A DNA stretch of 36,187 bases from a virus. The DNA lies in IMG/VR virus record IMGVR_UViG_3300037054_000135, positions 1-36,187 of that record; one strand, written 5' to 3'. The notes below the pieces were generated by a model. It was not told the origin of the DNA. It made no database searches and saw only the letters and a program-made list of their open reading frames with translations. This document shows, piece by piece, positions 748 through 22,694 of this stretch (positions within the stretch are counted from its first letter, which is position 1; the number at the start of each line of letters is the position of its first letter). The position numbers and the translations under genes were made by a program.

Positions 748-1560
748 ATGAAACCTCATCTCCATCTGCTCACCAAACTGGGTGCTTGCCGCGAAGCACA
801 AGCGTTCGCCAAGATCTGCCCTGACCTTGAAACGGCCTGGAACACCTGCGACCGGTCCGACTGGATGATCTGGCTGCTGCGCCGGCTGAAATACGACGAC
901 GCCAAGGTCTATCGGCTGTACTCGTGCTGGTGCGTGCGTAACACCCCATTGGCCAATGGCCGGATGGTATGGGATCTGCTGACCGATCCGCGCAGCCGGA
1001 ACGCCGTGGTGGTAGCGGAACGGTTTGCGGTGGGTGAAGCTACTGCTGACGAACTGCGCGAAGCACGCAACGCCGCCGCCACCGCCACCGCCGCCAACTA
1101 CGCCGCCACCGCCGACGCCGCCGACGCCGCCGCCACCGCCGCCGCCGCCGACGCCACCGCCGACGCCGCCGACGCCGCCGCCACCACCGCCACCGCCGCC
1201 ACCTACGCCGACGCCGCCGCCACCTACGCCGACGCCGCCGACGCCGCCGACGCCGCCGACGCCGCCGCCGCCACCGCCGCCGCCTACGCCGACGCCGCCG
1301 CCACCGCCGCCGCCACCTACGCCGACGCCGACGCCGCCGACGCCGCCGCCACCGCCGACGCCGACGCCGCCGACGCCGCCGCCACCGCCGCCGCCGCCGA
1401 CGCCACCGCCGACGCCGCCGACGCCGCCGCCACCGCCGCCGCCTACGCCAAGGCCACCTACGCCAATGCCACCTACGCCTGGACGGCAGCCCGAAAGGCG
1501 CAGGCCCGGCAACTGCGTGAGATGGTTCCTTTCAACATTATCGCGGGGCTGATCAAGTGA
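748..1560 (+). CDS. Imm-5-like domain protein with long alanine-rich repeat tail
   Basis: The first ~108 residues resemble the 'putative immunity protein' (Imm-5-like) family common in phages: a GAC motif near residue 13, DWMIWLLRRL at about 58-67, and DPRSRNAVVVAERFAVGEAT followed by a helical ELREAR. Residues 109-244 are almost purely Ala, Thr, Asp and Tyr, with every alanine encoded by GCC. A short ordinary C-terminus (WTAARKAQARQLREM...) ends the protein. It starts at an ATG after AGGAGC and overlaps the RuvC-like gene by GTGA. The immunity role is a family name, not demonstrated; the tail could be a helical alanine coil. Because of codon bias the repeat is open in other frames (Pro-rich on plus, Gly-rich on minus), which are not genes. 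Confidence 0.75.
   Translation: MKPHLHLLTKLGACREAQAFAKICPDLETAWNTCDRSDWMIWLLRRLKYDDAKVYRLYSCWCVRNTPLANGRMVWDLLTDPRSRNAVVVAERFAVGEATADELREARNAAATATAANYAATADAADAAATAAAADATADAADAAATTATAATYADAAATYADAADAADAADAAAATAAAYADAAATAAATYADADAADAAATADADAADAAATAAAADATADAADAAATAAAYAKATYANATYAWTAARKAQARQLREMVPFNIIAGLIK
1072..1479 (+). repeat. GCC/GAC/ACC codon repeat with exact 75-bp duplication
   Basis: This stretch of 136 codons inside the Imm-5-like gene uses essentially only GCC, ACC, GAC and TAC, arranged as (GCC GCC GAC)-like units. Bases 1111-1185 recur identically at 1360-1434, a 249-bp offset. All changes keep the reading frame. Such an array should be prone to slippage and recombination, so copy number may differ between isolates, and assembly errors are possible. 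Confidence 0.85.
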
Positions 1561-13123: not shown

Positions 13124-13732
13124 CTACCAGCTCATCCCGACCACTACGAAGGCGCTGAACTTTGGCAAAGGGCTGTAGGTGCCCACAACGCCGGCCTGAA
13201 ACGGGCCGAGCTTGTGCAGATAACCCGCGAGGTAGGCCTTGTTGACCAGGTCGTAGCCGCCGATGGCCGTTGACTTCGGCTCGCGCGGCGCGGATGACAC
13301 TGGTATGTCCACGCCTCCCACGATGGTCCCGTCAGGGCTGCTTGCCACCACACGCTGGGCGTCATCCGGCATCCTCAAGAGGGTCAGATCCACTGTCGTT
13401 GTAGACGGGAGGGCCGGGGTCGGCGCGGCGCCCGGCTGGCCGTACCCATTCGTTGGGGCGGTCGCCGCGGCGGGTGCAGATGATGCCCGCACCTGGATCT
13501 TTTCGATCCTTTCCACCTTGGCGCCCTTCGGTATCTGCTGGGCGGGAACCGCCTTTGCGTCCGGCGCGCGCTCCAGGATCAGGCTGCCGTCCGCTTGCCG
13601 CGCTGCCGGCATCGCCACCTCCACCGTCGCCACGGGTTTCGGGCGAAAGATCTTCCAACCCAGACCGATGCCTGCCACGAAGATCAGCCCTGCGGCCAGA
13701 ACCCATGCTCCTATTTTTGTGGTCCATGTCAC
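13124..13732 (-). CDS. Membrane-anchored protein at the end of the lysis cassette
   Basis: This 202-residue protein has one N-terminal membrane segment (about residues 8-26, IGAWVLAAGLIFVAGIGLGW), then a periplasm-type Pro/Ala/Thr-rich region and a C-terminal part of alternating hydrophobic/polar strands (LGPFQAGVVGTYSPLP...FVVVGMSW) ending in an aromatic residue. The family was not recognised. Position beside a holin-like gene suggests an envelope role, perhaps an atypical inner-membrane spanin, but the expected coiled coil is absent and no lipoprotein partner is seen in other frames. Its ATG overlaps the holin-like stop by 4 bp. Confidence 0.65.
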   Translation of the reverse strand: MTWTTKIGAWVLAAGLIFVAGIGLGWKIFRPKPVATVEVAMPAARQADGSLILERAPDAKAVPAQQIPKGAKVERIEKIQVRASSAPAAATAPTNGYGQPGAAPTPALPSTTTVDLTLLRMPDDAQRVVASSPDGTIVGGVDIPVSSAPREPKSTAIGGYDLVNKAYLAGYLHKLGPFQAGVVGTYSPLPKFSAFVVVGMSW

Positions 13733-13965
13733 TGGCCACCTCTCATGGAAAGGGCGCCGAGACCGCAGACGCCACCCAGGGTCGCCAGCGCCGTGTTGTT
13801 GATGTGCCCGGTCCCCCGGAACTCAAGCCAGATCATCGCCAGGCCGACGAAGACGTAGGCGCCGAAGGCCAGGAGTCTGACCTCGGTGGTGTGGTCGGAA
13901 GGATTGCCTAGGCTGACTGCCCAGGATCCGGCCGCGGTGATTCGCTGAAGAAGCCAAGCCCACAT
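13729..13965 (-). CDS. Putative holin (two membrane segments)
   Basis: This 78-residue protein has two hydrophobic stretches, VRLLAFGAYVFVGLAMIWLE and a shorter TALATLGGVCGLGAL, joined by a turn, with a charged linker and an ending MRGGQ. Size and topology fit class II holins, which form the inner-membrane lesion at lysis. The assignment rests on topology and neighbourhood. The ATG follows CCGGAGACCCC. Confidence 0.6.
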   Translation of the reverse strand: MWAWLLQRITAAGSWAVSLGNPSDHTTEVRLLAFGAYVFVGLAMIWLEFRGTGHINNTALATLGGVCGLGALSMRGGQ

Positions 13966-14025: not shown

Positions 14026-14460
14026 TCAGGCAAGCAGGAAATCGTCGGTGATCACGATGCTGACGTCCTCCCCGGCGGCCAGCGCATTGGCAACCTGGGC
14101 CTGCAGCATCGGCAGCGCGAGGCTCCCCCCGTGGATGTGGTCAGGCCCATCCACCACCTGGCCCACCAGGATGCAGCCGTGGGTGTCCACGTCATCGTTG
14201 CCGCTGTGGATGAGGATGCCATCGAAGTGCGGCACGTCCAGCAGGCGCATCATCGGGCGCCCCAGGCGCGGGCTCACGTTGATGATGACCTTGTAGGTGC
14301 CAGCCGGGATCGCGGTGGCGTCCTGGACCTTGCCGGATCCGTCATCCGCGATGCAGCGGACCACGTCCTCCAGGGTGACGCATTCGAAGTCGTCGTTGAC
14401 GAACAGCCGGCCGAGCGTGGCCGACTCGTTGCTGGACTGGCGGTGCAAAGAAAGGATCAT
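14026..14460 (-). CDS. DUF5675 family protein, candidate lysis enzyme
   Basis: This 144-residue protein matches DUF5675: MILSLHRQSSNESATLGRLF, CVTLEDVVRCI, IPAGTYKVIINVSPR, MRLLDVPHFDGILIHSGN and DTHGCILVG. His85, His94 and Cys96 form an H...THGC signature reminiscent of YkuD-type L,D-transpeptidases, which act on peptidoglycan cross-links. Members of this family often sit where the endolysin is expected, and no lysozyme or amidase is seen elsewhere in the window. A peptidoglycan-active role is therefore inferred, not established. No signal peptide. ATG follows TGAGGTAGCCC. Confidence 0.7.
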   Translation of the reverse strand: MILSLHRQSSNESATLGRLFVNDDFECVTLEDVVRCIADDGSGKVQDATAIPAGTYKVIINVSPRLGRPMMRLLDVPHFDGILIHSGNDDVDTHGCILVGQVVDGPDHIHGGSLALPMLQAQVANALAAGEDVSIVITDDFLLA

Positions 14461-14468
14461 GGGCTACC

Positions 14469-14780
14469 TCAGTGCTTTCCGGGGATGGGTTCTTCGGTCT
14501 GCGCAGCGCGTGGCTTGGCCACCAGGAAGAACTTATGTCGGTCCTCCCGCAGATAGTTCTCGTAACTTTCCTTGAAGGTGTCCTGCTCGAATTGCAGCCG
14601 GTCGATGCGGATGTTGGCTGCCCGAAGCTGCTCACCGTTGGCGGCCATGGTGACGCACAGCTGCTGCACGGTGGTGGTGAGCATTTCCAGCTTGCCGCCG
14701 AACCAGATTATGATGAGCCCGACCGATCCAATAAGGAGGCGGTCGAGCAAGGATCCGAGGGTGGCGCGGGGAGTGGTCAT
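14469..14780 (-). CDS. Membrane-anchored coiled-coil protein (spanin- or holin-like)
   Basis: This protein of 103 residues has one membrane segment (about residues 15-31, LIGSVGLIIIWFGGKLE) followed by a long coiled-coil-like helix (MLTTTVQQL...EQLRAANIRIDRLQFEQDTF...YENYLRED). A single N-terminal anchor plus periplasmic coiled coil is the plan of inner-membrane spanins, although small holins can look alike. It lies directly after the tail spike, with its ATG overlapping the spike stop (TGATG), so translation is coupled. A TTG three bases earlier is an alternative start; no ribosome site favours either. Confidence 0.6.
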   Translation of the reverse strand: MTTPRATLGSLLDRLLIGSVGLIIIWFGGKLEMLTTTVQQLCVTMAANGEQLRAANIRIDRLQFEQDTFKESYENYLREDRHKFFLVAKPRAAQTEEPIPGKH

Positions 14781-16918
14781 CAAATTTGGTAGTTCAGCGA
14801 GAGTTCGACATAGTCCCCACTAGCCCATGCCCCAGGAACCGCTGCTTGCCAATTATTGGTCGTCCCCTGGCCGATGATGAATGCGTAGCCTCCAGTGGTA
14901 TACCACTGGACTGCTCCGAGATAGAAGGTCGTTCCAGCTACGCGTGCGACAGCAGAACCGATGATGGGGTTTAGGCCATAGAGCCCCGCCATGAGGGAAC
15001 CGGGCAACGGGAGGACTGGGACCGGAACCTGAATGTTCCCAGAGGGAGCACCGCTGATTACCACCTTGGCCTGGGCGACAACGGTTCGGCCATTGATGCT
15101 ATAGAATCCGTTGCTCGAGGTATTCCCCACCGCGCCAAGAGCAGGGTTCCACCCTGTGATATATCCTTGCGGCAGATAGGCGAAGGTGTTCCCTGCCTTT
15201 TGCCGCCAATAGGCGGAAAGACCGACCTGAGCGCAATCAAACATTGTGACCTGACTCGAACCGGAACCCAGGATATTGTTGATCGCTGCTGGAGTGCATG
15301 ACTCCATAATCAGGAAACCCATAGCCCCCAGGTCAATGTCTCCCTGAATGTAACACCCGGTCATTTTGCACCGGGTGAAATTATTAGAGTTCCCATTGTT
15401 GCTTAGGCTAATCGCTTTGAAGGAGTTGGCTTCTATGTAGCACCCGTCAAGGTGCAAATTCCATATATAACCACCCAATGCGTTTGTATTGCAAACAATC
15501 CCAGAGATGCCATCTTCAAATATGGATGACCTGATGTTGTAAGGTCCAATGCTGGTCCCATCTATTTCCAATCCATTGCCCGAGTAGGCCGTGAAATCGC
15601 AATGGTCGATGTCTGTTGCGTAGTTGTAGATTGACCCACCATTTGTCCGCAACCTTATCCCAGAACCGGTAATAGTGTTCGCGGTAACATCATGTGCTTT
15701 CAAGCCATAAGCGGCCATGGCGTCAATGCAATAGCTGACAACGGAAGATCCGAATGTGACTCGATCAATGAGGAAGTCGCGGGTGTTGCCCTGAGTCTGA
15801 ATAGCGAATGCTGCTGTATTACCTCCAGTATTTACGAAGATCACCCCGCCCCTTAGGATGCTGAGGGTGTCGCCACAGTTGAAGATGATCGCCCCGCCTA
15901 CCGCCGTTCCGGTTCCAATACCGGCACCCGTGGCCACGAAGTTCTGTTCCCATGCGGTATCGGCGCCAGTGCCGGGAAGCGTAGCGGTAAAAATGGTTCC
16001 CGGGGCGTTGCTGGACGCCCCACACAAAGTCCACTGATTCGTTGTGTTGGTTTTCACCACGTAACTCTTGCCAGGGATTATGGCCGTTGCTGCCAGCACA
16101 CTGGCCCCAATCCCGTCCCAAGCGGTATTCCCGGGGGCCAGGATGGCGTAAGCATTCCCGATCACGAACGCCCCAGCAGCCGTAGGCGGAATTGTGAAAT
16201 TCAGGAAGGTATTGGCATCAAGAGAAATCTGGCAGGAGTGGGTTACTGGCGCCAAAGCGTTGAGATTGTAGGTGCCACCTGGGATGTGAAAAGCGTTGTT
16301 GGCAGCGATGGTATTGTTTAGCGCGATAGTATTCTGCGCAGCCGTATTTGTAGTTAGCATCCCGCCGTCAACTACAGCGTTGTAGGACCGGTTCTGGCTG
16401 TAGATATCAAGGGTAAATGGTACGGCGTTGGTCTCTGAGCGGAGTCCAGCCACCAGCGCATCCCCCTGCCCTGCGGCGGTGGAGGCGAGCTGAGCCAGAA
16501 GTTGCGCGTTGATCTGCGCAGCCGTCAGCCCCGGGGATGCCAGGTTCTGGATCTGGCCGGCCAACTGCTGCGCCAGCAGAACGGCATGATCCGCCGCGGC
16601 CTCATGCGAAGCGGCCGGGAACGGATCCCCCTCAACCCAATGGGTGAGCTGCGTGAACGGCTCGTTCAGCAGGATCGAAAGAACCTGCACTGCGTTCTTG
16701 GGCGCCACGAAGAGCGACACGGTGACGAACAGGCCGCCCACCGAGGTGAGCGTGTAGTCCGAGTTCAGCACCAGCGTCCGCACCACGGGCGAAGCTGGAA
16801 TGGTGTTGTCGGTGAGGATCACCAGCGGCGGCGAGATGCAGTTCGAAGGCGCGTTGAAGCTGGTCGTGACGCCATTGCCCGTGTAGTTCACCACCGGGTT
16901 ATTGCTCTGAACGGTCAT
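14780..16918 (-). CDS. Tail spike/fibre with beta-helix domain
   Basis: This 712-residue protein has a T7 gp17-like N-terminal attachment region (NPVVNYTGNGVTTSF...FTQLTHWVEGDPFPAASHEAAADHAVLLAQQL), then a pectate-lyase-like right-handed beta-helix beginning at about residue 215 with FHIPGGTYNLNAL, rich in Asn and Gly ladders, and a C-terminal trimerisation-type domain. An inserted segment at about 270-330 (IPGKSYVVKTNTTNQWTLCGA...) resembles a repeat module found in many phage tail proteins. It should bind, and perhaps cleave, the host surface glycan. The DNA from about 15.0 to 16.4 kb is visibly less GC-rich than the flanks, indicating host-range module exchange. ATG follows TGGAGAGACC. Confidence 0.85.
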   Translation of the reverse strand: MTVQSNNPVVNYTGNGVTTSFNAPSNCISPPLVILTDNTIPASPVVRTLVLNSDYTLTSVGGLFVTVSLFVAPKNAVQVLSILLNEPFTQLTHWVEGDPFPAASHEAAADHAVLLAQQLAGQIQNLASPGLTAAQINAQLLAQLASTAAGQGDALVAGLRSETNAVPFTLDIYSQNRSYNAVVDGGMLTTNTAAQNTIALNNTIAANNAFHIPGGTYNLNALAPVTHSCQISLDANTFLNFTIPPTAAGAFVIGNAYAILAPGNTAWDGIGASVLAATAIIPGKSYVVKTNTTNQWTLCGASSNAPGTIFTATLPGTGADTAWEQNFVATGAGIGTGTAVGGAIIFNCGDTLSILRGGVIFVNTGGNTAAFAIQTQGNTRDFLIDRVTFGSSVVSYCIDAMAAYGLKAHDVTANTITGSGIRLRTNGGSIYNYATDIDHCDFTAYSGNGLEIDGTSIGPYNIRSSIFEDGISGIVCNTNALGGYIWNLHLDGCYIEANSFKAISLSNNGNSNNFTRCKMTGCYIQGDIDLGAMGFLIMESCTPAAINNILGSGSSQVTMFDCAQVGLSAYWRQKAGNTFAYLPQGYITGWNPALGAVGNTSSNGFYSINGRTVVAQAKVVISGAPSGNIQVPVPVLPLPGSLMAGLYGLNPIIGSAVARVAGTTFYLGAVQWYTTGGYAFIIGQGTTNNWQAAVPGAWASGDYVELSLNYQI

Positions 16919-20000: not shown

Positions 20001-20637
20001 CGGGGAGCTTGCCCTGCAGCGCCGCGCTCGCGGTGGTCATCGTGCCGATCTCGGCACCGGTCGCGGCCAGGGCGCCCAGGGGGCGGACAGCGGCCCCGGT
20101 CCCGGCAGTCAACGCACCCACGGCTCCCTGCTTGAGCGCATCGGCTGATACGATGGCCGTGCGGTTCAGGAAGTCTCCCGCGCTTTGGACCTCGCCATTC
20201 TGATAGCGCAGCATGAGCGCGGTGCGCAGGGCGGTCGGGACGGCGAAGGCGCCTGCGCCGGCCCCGACGATGCCACCGATGACGTTGCCCACCACCGGGG
20301 CCGCAGAACCCAGGGCCGCGCCGGCTGCGCCTCCCCCAATGGTACCCGCCAGCACTTCCGGCGCTTCGGCGCCCATTTGCGTCGCCTTAGAAGCCAAGCC
20401 TTCCAGCCAGGTAGAATGCTGCGGGTCGAGCACCACGTCCGGGAGCTTGCCCCGAAGGGCCAAGCCCGTGGCCGAGCCCTGGTATCCGGCGACGGCCGCA
20501 TCCCAAAGGCCGCTGGCCGCCCGGGGGCGCCCGGGACCGGCGGGAATATCCATGACCGATCCGGTCTGCCAAGCGGGCGCAGCAGGGGGCTGGATCTCAG
20601 GAAGGACAGGTTCGGAATCAGTTTGCCAGTTGCCCAC
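16990..20637 (-). CDS. Giant internal virion (ejection) protein with ART-like segment
   Basis: This 1215-residue protein takes the place of T7 gp16 in the ejection-protein order. A Pro/Gly-rich N-terminus is followed by a Gly/Ala-rich hydrophobic stretch (about 85-140, AGTIGGGAAGAALGSAAP...), then, at about 300-390, a segment with LFRGSSP, HYTDDFRTADYFRASYG and YLDVP that resembles ADP-ribosyltransferases of polyvalent phage proteins. The C-terminal half contains LMLPFTKIPANVLKESARLS and GSILINGTWHSVGMIHPVGT, typical of large polyvalent-protein associated domain 38. It is predicted to be carried in the virion and delivered with the DNA. The start is GTG at 20637 after GGGGGGCAG, overlapping the upstream stop. 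Confidence 0.8.
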   Translation of the reverse strand: MGNWQTDSEPVLPEIQPPAAPAWQTGSVMDIPAGPGRPRAASGLWDAAVAGYQGSATGLALRGKLPDVVLDPQHSTWLEGLASKATQMGAEAPEVLAGTIGGGAAGAALGSAAPVVGNVIGGIVGAGAGAFAVPTALRTALMLRYQNGEVQSAGDFLNRTAIVSADALKQGAVGALTAGTGAAVRPLGALAATGAEIGTMTTASAALQGKLPEPEDFLNAAIMVGGMHAAGVVSGRLREVYAQTGVRPEQVLADSKADPSIAEDLQKPLPQAEVAPSMPQDVPIVFRRGLNLADTEKTLAGLPGVPEGFTRLFRGSSPTDGFDGTFDASQLTDHAPDRPGEHYTDDFRTADYFRASYGKDANVSYLDVPTEIAEQAKVRDGEYILDLGKGAPRDAGKVHWDPSTWAEANPDIPKAYQPMADAQAVADAIPNLPNDEAVVPEVFGPTQPIPGEPRLGRTNFQYLNTTDQMNGAILRLEQIASDGIDKANRGVVSNAETAAQAADWLQSALGEGGVPNRNPGDPVSAPEMVARKWLLERSASEMVQRALEYNQLDNPTQEQTDAWMQSNARANMATALVNSLSVKAEAGRTLQAAQITSGVVEHAQLLSDILAQSGKTPKELASMVAQLDSAEGAARMAQLLHPATKWQMVMEAWKAGLLGPTTVIKKSLSDIAMMASRPFVDAVAYGAGTLPGMEQHMSAMEPVARVAGNFLGAKEGLVQAWNVLKMDFGGVDPSGDITETQHAIPGLAGQIIRTPFSALKAVTTLFECMEARGEAGAIGARQATAEGLNPMTREWWDRVGDVSTDSKQVQDFATRTTFGAEVGPMMKAVQKVVNTPIMGTDIKPGQLMLPFTKIPANVLKESARLSPFAPLVGEWRADFGEGGISRNKAIAEMAIGTAVASLAMAYAAAGKISGSGDPDPAKRRAQLASGWQPGSILINGTWHSVGMIHPVGTLLTMAADVHEMSDRMEAGESDQAMKILQGAFSHAVTQQSFLQGMTNVVHALDAPEKSGNVFVQNLAASVVPATVSQMASMIHQDPYKRQIDSIKDAVQARIPGLREQMLPQRDALGEPVANDDRLAGISPSVASTPSTDPVRAELGRLESKGFGVGVQAAPHSINLPDAHMKDLGKVEVTPQQRDVFATVAGQMSHQILSTMVTNPMWEHVPDALKQQMMQKVFEHGDSVAKATVLSPEQRQQEMIQILAGVKSRLAAPVEK

Positions 20638-22694
20638 TACTGCCCCCCGAGGTTAAACGAACCCGTGACCCCGGCTGCCTTTACCGGTGCCTTCTTGCGC
20701 AGGACGTTGCCCTGTGGATCGGTGAACTGAGCCCCGGGTGCCAGCGAGTCGAAATCCTTGAAGGTCGGCAGCGAAGCCTTCGCCGGGCCTACTACTGCGG
20801 CTGCCTGGTTCGCCACCACGGCCGAAGCGTTCGGCAGGAACGACGCGATCCGGTCAGGCTTGCCCAGGTAGTCCCGGGACTTAGGATCCAGGAGCGCACC
20901 GGCATCGCCTCCAGCCTTCTGCACTGCAGCGATCTGGTTCTGCGCGTCCCGATCCCAGGAATACCAGCCCATCAGGTAAGCGGAAGGATCGGCAAAGGCC
21001 CCGGGGTTCTTCTCGAAGCCCTGCCGGACGGTGTTCGACAGCTGCCCATAGCCCTTCCAGAACGGGTTCCCGTCGTCGTCCTTCAGGTGCCCGGCGTAGG
21101 CGATGTAGCGCTCACCTGTGTTGGCGGTGATGCTGCCATTGGCCATGGCCGCCCGCACCTTCGGGACGTCCTGGCTGTGGTCGAACTGGGGATTCGGGTT
21201 GGTCATGTCCATCATCAGATTGCGGGCCACCCAGGGGTTGTCCCGGTCAGCGAGGGCCCCGTTGTGGTCGGCGGCGCGATCACGCACCTGGCCGAGCCAT
21301 TCGAGCTGCTGAGCCTTGAGCGGGGAGTTCGGGTCCGCGGCGATGCCCTTGAGGTCCATGCGCCCCGTGGCGATGAAGTCCTTGACGACGTCGGTGAGCT
21401 TGTCCTCCTGCTGCTTGGCGAGATCGATGCGCGCGTCCTCGTCCTGCCGGCGTTTTTCGGCCATGTTCCGGAGGTTCAGCTCGGTCCCGTACTGGACCAA
21501 GGACATCTGCTGTTCGCCGGTCAGACCATTCCATCCGGGGATGCTGGACTGGGTCACCGGGGTCGGCCCGGGCGCAGGCGCGGGGGCCGCGTTGGGATCG
21601 ACCGGTACCGGCGCGCTGGGCGTCATGCCAGACACGGTCATGACGGAGTTGACATATGAGTTGGTCGCATCCGGGACGTGGGCAGCCCAGCCGAACCCGT
21701 AGGTGTTCACCGCGGCGTCCACCGCATCCGTTCCGGCGTGATCGGCGGCCAGTGCCATCTGCTGGTCGCCATTGTAGTATTTCAGCAGGGCGGCCTGGTT
21801 GACGGCCATCTGCTCGGGCGTGCGCCCCGCGGCGCCGCCCACATCGATCTGCCCAAGCACCACGTTGGCGTTGGCGCCCGTCGCCGCGGCCGCGGGGAAC
21901 ACCTGGGGGGCCTGGGCCATGGTCGTGGGGCTGAGGCTGACCTGGCCGCCCGGAACCGCGCCGGCCTGGACCAGCGCGGGGCCTGGGTCGTGCGCCGCAG
22001 CGGCAGGGCCGAGGATGCCCAGCGCGCGGCCGGCGTTCAGGTCGAAGGTGCGCTTGGCCGCGACGAAGTTCGTCTTGTTGATGAAGTCCTGGGCGAACCG
22101 GTCGCGCTCGGCCTGGTTGACGCCGGGGTAGTAGTATTGGCCGCTCGGATCGTTGATGGCTGCAGTTCCCGCGGCCTGGACCAAAGCCAGTTGGGAAGGA
22201 TCACTCGCCACCGTGCTGGTCGCGCTGGTGGTGAGCGCCGTGTGGGCGTTGGCTGCAGCCTGCCCGTTAAGCTGGCTCTGACCGGTGATCGCCTTCTCCG
22301 CGAACTCGGTGGATAGGCTGGCGCCCAACTGAGTCCAAAGCTGCTTGCCCTTATTCGTGGCCGCCGAGTCAGCGCCATTGGTGACGTAGGCGTTGACGTC
22401 GGCCATGATGGAAGGCGCGAAGGTCTGGTCACCCGGCTGCGCCGAGGCCAGCCGGTCCTGAAGATTCTGGGTCCAGTCGGCCCGCGCCTTCATCATGTTG
22501 ACGTGGACGTTGGTGACGTCCTCGGTCTCGGCCTGCTGCTGCAGCATGTCGGCGCCCTGTGCGAGGCCCTGTCCGATCCGGTCCATGCCGCTGCCGATCT
22601 GCGAGCCGAAGTCCTCGGCACTCGCCATCGGCCGGTTGCGCTGGACCTCTCCCTGCGCTATGACGTGGTCTTCGTACTGCGGGATCTGCGCCAT
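20637..22694 (-). CDS. Internal virion protein with partial lytic transglycosylase fold
   Basis: This 685-residue protein corresponds in position and style to T7 gp15-like ejection proteins: Gln/Ala-rich, helical, without a signal peptide. At about residues 298-355, DQQMALAADHAGTDAVDAA, then GFGWAAHVPDATNSYVNSVM, resembles the second half of soluble lytic transglycosylases, where 'ALAAYNAG...V...YV' is usual. The catalytic glutamate region is not recognisable, so enzymatic activity is doubtful. It probably forms part of the channel through which DNA crosses the envelope. ATG follows GGAGAGTAATTC. Confidence 0.78.
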   Translation of the reverse strand: MAQIPQYEDHVIAQGEVQRNRPMASAEDFGSQIGSGMDRIGQGLAQGADMLQQQAETEDVTNVHVNMMKARADWTQNLQDRLASAQPGDQTFAPSIMADVNAYVTNGADSAATNKGKQLWTQLGASLSTEFAEKAITGQSQLNGQAAANAHTALTTSATSTVASDPSQLALVQAAGTAAINDPSGQYYYPGVNQAERDRFAQDFINKTNFVAAKRTFDLNAGRALGILGPAAAAHDPGPALVQAGAVPGGQVSLSPTTMAQAPQVFPAAAATGANANVVLGQIDVGGAAGRTPEQMAVNQAALLKYYNGDQQMALAADHAGTDAVDAAVNTYGFGWAAHVPDATNSYVNSVMTVSGMTPSAPVPVDPNAAPAPAPGPTPVTQSSIPGWNGLTGEQQMSLVQYGTELNLRNMAEKRRQDEDARIDLAKQQEDKLTDVVKDFIATGRMDLKGIAADPNSPLKAQQLEWLGQVRDRAADHNGALADRDNPWVARNLMMDMTNPNPQFDHSQDVPKVRAAMANGSITANTGERYIAYAGHLKDDDGNPFWKGYGQLSNTVRQGFEKNPGAFADPSAYLMGWYSWDRDAQNQIAAVQKAGGDAGALLDPKSRDYLGKPDRIASFLPNASAVVANQAAAVVGPAKASLPTFKDFDSLAPGAQFTDPQGNVLRKKAPVKAAGVTGSFNLGGQ

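Follow-up and report, generated by a model that had tools for sequence, protein, structure and literature searches.

The DUF5675 gene and its neighbors

The window analyzed here is the whole source record of 36,187 bases, which is of podovirus type and encodes a head-tail connector, capsid, terminase, and T7-like internal proteins (Pfam/PHROG). A check of the record ends reported no direct terminal repeat of at least 20 bases, and the record comes without a completeness estimate, so an endolysin could lie beyond its ends. A first-pass annotation had placed a DUF5675 gene at 14026-14460 without giving a strand, and the gene is real: a 144-aa open reading frame (ORF) on the minus strand. The features considered below are as follows.

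14026..14460, minus strand: DUF5675 gene, 144 aa, predicted YkuD-fold cysteine peptidase (Pfam PF18925 and AlphaFold model)
14206..14208, minus strand: His85 codon, predicted catalytic base (His in 224 of 224 sequences; aligns with the YkuD-type His in profile and pairwise comparisons)
14173..14184, minus strand: Thr93-His94-Gly95-Cys96 codons, predicted nucleophile loop (conservation in 224 relatives)
14469..14783, minus strand: 104-aa ORF with a TTG start, upstream of DUF5675; possible holin or lysis regulator, from one N-terminal hydrophobic segment
13729..13965, minus strand: 78-aa ORF, probable holin or antiholin, from one hydrophobic segment and a 65% identical homolog at the same position in the related record L373
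13124..13732, minus strand: 202-aa protein with an N-terminal membrane anchor (hydropathy), possibly a spanin-like envelope protein; 89% identical in L373 and 46% in the related record L378

The 144-aa protein is a member of DUF5675 (PF18925; E = 1.9e-25, 89.3 bits, curated cut-off 26.7) and matches PHROG 1501, a family without assigned function, while an NCBIfam search gave no match. Hydropathy revealed no hydrophobic N-terminal segment, in keeping with the earlier statement that the protein has no signal peptide. Similarly, no lysozyme, amidase, or endopeptidase had been recognized in the window, and our Pfam scan of its 42 ORFs found no lytic family among the best 25 of 63 families (weakest match among these, E = 0.0078). 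The 685-, 1215-, and 712-aa proteins of the window match no Pfam family at E ≤ 10. Elsewhere in the window, positions 984-1490 (plus strand), inside the ORF at 748-1560, hold a long low-complexity repeat with steps of 9 and 12 nt, of which 35 copies of the reference were found; the encoded protein is rich in Ala, Thr, Tyr, and Asp.

The first-pass annotation described a holin-like gene beside DUF5675. The hydrophobic segment is present, but neither ORF 14469-14783 nor ORF 13729-13965 has a convincing holin-family match in Pfam, PHROG, or NCBIfam, and the term "holin-like" is therefore based on hydropathy and on the relatives described below.

Predicted fold and active site

The AlphaFold2 model, built from an alignment with 66 relatives, has a pLDDT of 96.4 and a pTM of 0.90. 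Structural comparison with YkuD enzymes had been proposed as a check in the first-pass annotation. All 37 entries listed in a second structural comparison (45 chains, Z ≥ 5) belong to the YkuD superfamily of peptidoglycan enzymes and are L,D-transpeptidases, L,D-carboxypeptidases, or the related DpaA. The top match is Pgp2 (Z 9.8, 112 residues aligned, 2.9 Å), followed by Tlde1a (Z 9.0), DpaA (8.9), Csd6 (8.4), YkuD (8.2), and Bd1075 (8.0); the tool cautions that Z values of 7 to 8 are common, and here the best values are 9 to 10 and the whole list is one superfamily. Foldseek against the PDB gave high probability only for Tlde1a (0.98) and Pgp2 (0.92) among the best 50 matches listed, and no match had an E value below 0.001. 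Overall, the predicted structure makes it almost certain that the DUF5675 protein has a YkuD fold.

The motif in the window protein is H85-x7-T93-H94-G95-C96-I97. Across 224 aligned DUF5675 sequences, His85, Gly87, Gly95, and Cys96 are invariant, and position 93 is always Ser or Thr, which gives the catalytic-type arrangement of a Cys in [S/T]xGC with an upstream His. This alignment combines viral and chromosomal members found by patterns, some of which included an HxGN stretch, and the 18 members found by tblastn, without any motif pattern, form its unbiased part for His85; all 18 carry this residue. By contrast, position 94 is Glu in 150 of the 224 sequences, and the six residues most frequent there, which do not include His, account for 208. 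The catalytic pair named earlier, Cys96 and His94, is thus upheld for the cysteine and must be revised for the histidine: His94 is ruled out as a catalytic residue, and the invariant His85 is the predicted catalytic His instead.

It is worth noting that the active site departs from the canonical motif HX14-17[S/T]HGC, as quoted in PMC9638812, in that only 10 residues separate His85 and Cys96. That source describes residues H121, S128, H129, and C131 for Tlde1a, whose His-to-Cys spacing is near that of DUF5675. In addition, the Arg two residues past the Cys (GCIR), which is present in the consensus of our bacterial YkuD set, is replaced in DUF5675 by Leu98 in 219 of 224 members.

Sequence comparisons point the same way, by links that are weak but specific. 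The Pfam family Tlde1_dom (PF10908) is matched by 18 of 66 DUF5675 members at E ≤ 1 (best, 3.7e-4), and every other foreign Pfam family matches at most 2 of the 66. The window protein itself matches neither PF10908 (cut-off 30.1 bits) nor the Pfam YkuD family PF03734 (cut-off 23.4 bits), to which two microvirus DUF5675 members show weak matches of 12.7 and 13.4 bits. When the window protein was aligned pairwise with the Tlde1-domain protein that L373 encodes, the E value was 0.002 as a single comparison, and His85 and Cys96 fell on the His and Cys of that phage protein. Against 16 bacterial YkuD domains, profile comparison yielded a weak match (probability 2.8%, p = 0.016) aligning 23 columns around H..GC, and a second such comparison misaligns; being too weak by itself, profile comparison was dropped as sole proof of YkuD kinship. 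PDB sequence searches with the protein and with the profile returned no YkuD match.

Lysis-cassette context of DUF5675 relatives

DUF5675 relatives are encoded by at least 592 and at least 580 stretches in two viral scans, the sets of which overlap. The neighborhood was examined at 68 non-redundant loci, a mixture of viral contigs and bacterial chromosomes drawn from 205 loci in three sets (80 of 80, 80 of 80, and 45 of 80, the last picked by flank length) after removal of loci with a flank shorter than 2.5 kb, loci where no ORF was called, and near duplicates of loci already included. With a simple hydropathy rule as the membrane call, a hydrophobic segment occurs in 56 of 147 small same-strand neighbors of DUF5675 versus 55 of 584 such genes elsewhere, and 38 of the 68 loci have at least one such neighbor. 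Holin families among the neighbors include Phage_holin_4_1 (three) and a LydA-type holin (one), and PHROG holins and Rz-like spanins appear among the best 25 of 41 PHROG families; GTA-type holins are present at two loci (L165 and L171). Thus, DUF5675 lies in cassettes with a holin or spanin gene in relatives, and in the window hydropathy is what identifies the cassette. At another locus (L002:5001-5948), the DUF5675 frame continues into a lipobox-like motif and a C-terminal membrane segment, resembling a unimolecular spanin; this is either a fusion or a gene with its start inside the frame.

Exchange with Tlde1-domain and M15 peptidase genes

Two relatives of the window were found via its 1215-aa protein. 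One (L374) stops short of the lysis region, which makes L373 the nearest relative with that region present. In L373, the slot between the tail spike gene and the homologs of the 78-aa (65%) and 202-aa (89%) genes of the window holds a 121-aa protein with a Tlde1_dom match above the cut-off (E = 9e-11) and a near match to YkuD (22.2 bits vs. 23.4). The slot is alike in L378, where a Tlde1_dom gene (E = 7e-11) lies upstream of the 46% homolog of the 202-aa gene. No DUF5675 was found in either record, and Tlde1_dom was found in none of 29 larger DUF5675 records. Searches for further sisters of the window cassette yielded one to two loci.

DUF5675 was also found by tblastn in complete ssDNA microvirus genomes of 4.8-6.9 kb. 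In Peromfec RodF7_5, Peromfec RodF8_16, and bajarodmic 1102, it lies just ahead of the replication gene. The nearest genomes by capsid protein that lack it, bajarodmic 601 and 1034, encode an M15_3 peptidase in that slot (E = 4.5e-18 and 2.2e-17) and gave no DUF5675 match, and M15_3 was absent from all 10 DUF5675 microviruses searched. In an MCP tree of 17 chosen rows, the M15 pair (99/98) is sister to the DUF5675 trio (99/99) in a joint clade supported at 98/97; a long-branch warning concerns branches outside this clade. Microvirus M15 peptidases were proposed as endolysins in PMC3394797. In three gokushovirus-type genomes, DUF5675 adjoins the capsid gene on the circle. Some microvirus relatives have neither gene, which means that a recognized enzyme does not always occupy the slot. 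A scan for more microviruses gave mostly tailed phages.

At the same locus, DUF5675 therefore takes the place of a known wall hydrolase twice, with respect to the M15_3 genes of its microvirus sisters and the Tlde1_dom gene of L373, and it appears to stand in for established wall cutters in tailed phages and in the tiny ssDNA phages alike.

Other hydrolases and other genomic contexts

Twenty-nine larger phage records (>35 kb), hand-picked and each with one DUF5675 match, were searched for common endolysin families; GH24, Amidase_2, M15_3, and M15_4 were found in none of them, and GH19 is left out of this count because its control gave no match. SLT proteins occur in 3 of the 29, in one case (L243) directly upstream of DUF5675. 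In crAss001, the DUF5675 protein gp30 is encoded near gp27 and gp28 (lysis regulator/holin), and other annotated hydrolases are gp89 (peptidoglycan hydrolase) and gp26 (CHAP note). The first-pass description of DUF5675 as the only candidate peptidoglycan enzyme consequently holds for this record at the Pfam level but does not extend to the family, given the crAss001 hydrolases.

A different position is seen in the ackermannvirus Vibrio phage 1.244.A (L381:4001-4450), the one examined of 101 Vibrio records with tblastn matches, where the genes on either side of DUF5675 encode a capsid-assembly protein and the prohead protease. In two Bacteroidales chromosomes (L109 and L122), the gene directly follows one for an 852-aa BT4734-like_N protein, a non-lysis context, and in Ralstonia phage RP31 (BFVD A0A1L7N1E2) DUF5675 is a domain of a protein of more than 1200 aa. 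In view of the crAss001 hydrolases, the Vibrio head position, the Bacteroidales context, and the window neighbors without a holin-family match, the role of DUF5675 may vary across its carriers.

In the window itself, residues about 225-365 of the 685-aa internal virion protein (20637-22694, minus strand) resemble by eye the C-terminal part of an SLT transglycosylase, with no obvious catalytic Glu. A working SLT enzyme was not recovered from this protein by Pfam, and its structural model (pLDDT 38) was useless.

Proposed function and alternatives

The first-pass annotation compared the motif with L,D-transpeptidase active sites and suggested that the protein may be another kind of lysis enzyme. 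Both ideas are supported by the fold, the sequence links, the cassette, and the two gene swaps, although the interpretation as a whole stands only in part. We consider it probable that DUF5675 is a lytic or lysis-assisting wall enzyme and, with somewhat less assurance, likely that it is a compact YkuD-superfamily cysteine peptidase serving as the endolysin of the phage. The best reading is a catalytic class that is new among endolysins and uses a known fold. The enzyme would build up in the cytoplasm because it has no signal peptide, and the membrane protein or proteins of the cassette would admit it to the periplasm in a holin-dependent step. There, Cys96, activated by His85, would attack the stem peptides at the L,D bond that joins meso-diaminopimelate-3 to D-Ala-4, after which water would free the acyl-enzyme; this assignment of the bond (mDap3-D-Ala4) is tentative. 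In a 4-3 cross-link, such a cut would part the two strands it joins, which is how an L,D-endopeptidase could bring about lysis. A point against this is that the known L,D-carboxypeptidases trim tails and none is known to lyse cells.

Lysis might instead come about by exchange, whereby a Tlde1a-like swap or removal of D-Ala4 permits no new cross-links, so that the wall gives way as it grows. In favor of this, Tlde1a ranks among the top structural matches, the closest cassettes have a Tlde1 domain in place of DUF5675, and PMC9638812 reports LD-carboxypeptidase and transpeptidase activity for Tlde1a. We nevertheless regard this as unlikely, since the swap with M15 peptidase genes in microviruses points to direct cutting. 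Moreover, holin-spanin cassettes usually accompany a fast muralytic enzyme. An equally unlikely reading gives DUF5675 an accessory role at the wall and makes another, unrecognized gene the true endolysin; this could be, for example, the 685-aa virion protein, through its SLT-like stretch, or a gene lying outside the record. The further hydrolases of crAss001 and the SLT proteins in a few larger records speak for it, as does the SLT-like stretch itself, but the 685-aa protein has neither a Pfam match nor a usable model, microviruses of this size have hardly another gene to spare, and the four common endolysin families are missing from all 29 larger records.

Less probable still is a role for DUF5675 in the virion, in head maturation, or in entry, with its place near lysis genes here due to chance. 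The head-module position in Vibrio phage 1.244.A and the occurrence of DUF5675 as a domain of very large proteins, as in RP31, would fit such a role, but holin- and spanin-like genes adjoin DUF5675 here and in many relatives, and it is exchanged with wall peptidases.

Relation to known systems and implications

Like DUF5675, the Tlde1 domain and Salmonella Tlde1a combine a YkuD-type fold, a predicted one for DUF5675, with a short His-to-Cys loop and [S/T]xGC, and Tlde1_dom genes occupy the lysis slot of DUF5675 in L373 and a similar slot in L378. However, Tlde1a is a secreted antibacterial effector rather than a lysis gene, and DUF5675 falls below the PF10908 cut-off. Pgp2, Csd6, Bd1075, and DpaA, the best or near-best structural matches (Z 8.0-9.8), are larger, whereas DUF5675, with 144 aa and no signal peptide, is found in phage lysis cassettes. 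All four of these enzymes are exported, and Pgp2, Csd6, and Bd1075 trim tetrapeptides. The phage M15 endolysins (PF08291), including those of microviruses, share the genomic slot and the presumed role, but M15 is a different family of zinc peptidases, whereas DUF5675 is a predicted cysteine enzyme of another fold. In crAss-like phage relatives found by tblastn, the GenBank annotation reads "L,D-carboxypeptidase/transpeptidase," next to a "lysis regulatory protein/holin," and the literature searched contained no functional test of these genes.

Among the open-licence papers searched, two mention DUF5675, in passages that name it as an annotation, and no report of it as an endolysin was found there. 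YkuD is already counted as a rare phage lytic domain, with 10 entries in PhaLP (PMC8310338) and one GH25-YkuD protein (PMC13284279), and two C. difficile YkuD enzymes are reported to have LD-endopeptidase activity (PMC12729407).

Taken more broadly, DUF5675 could represent a widespread class of cysteine L,D-endopeptidase endolysins, unrecognized in the literature searched and built on the fold with which bacteria cross-link their wall. This class would pass from tailed dsDNA phages to microviruses with ssDNA genomes and back, and would exchange freely with M15 and Tlde1-type enzymes, a proposition that we hold to be evenly balanced. The family could show cleanly whether a fold used for cross-linking can also cut. 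If the endolysin reading is true, phages without a recognized endolysin would gain one, a further catalytic class would be added to the lytic enzymes studied as antibacterials, and two unrelated virus realms would have a lysis gene in common.
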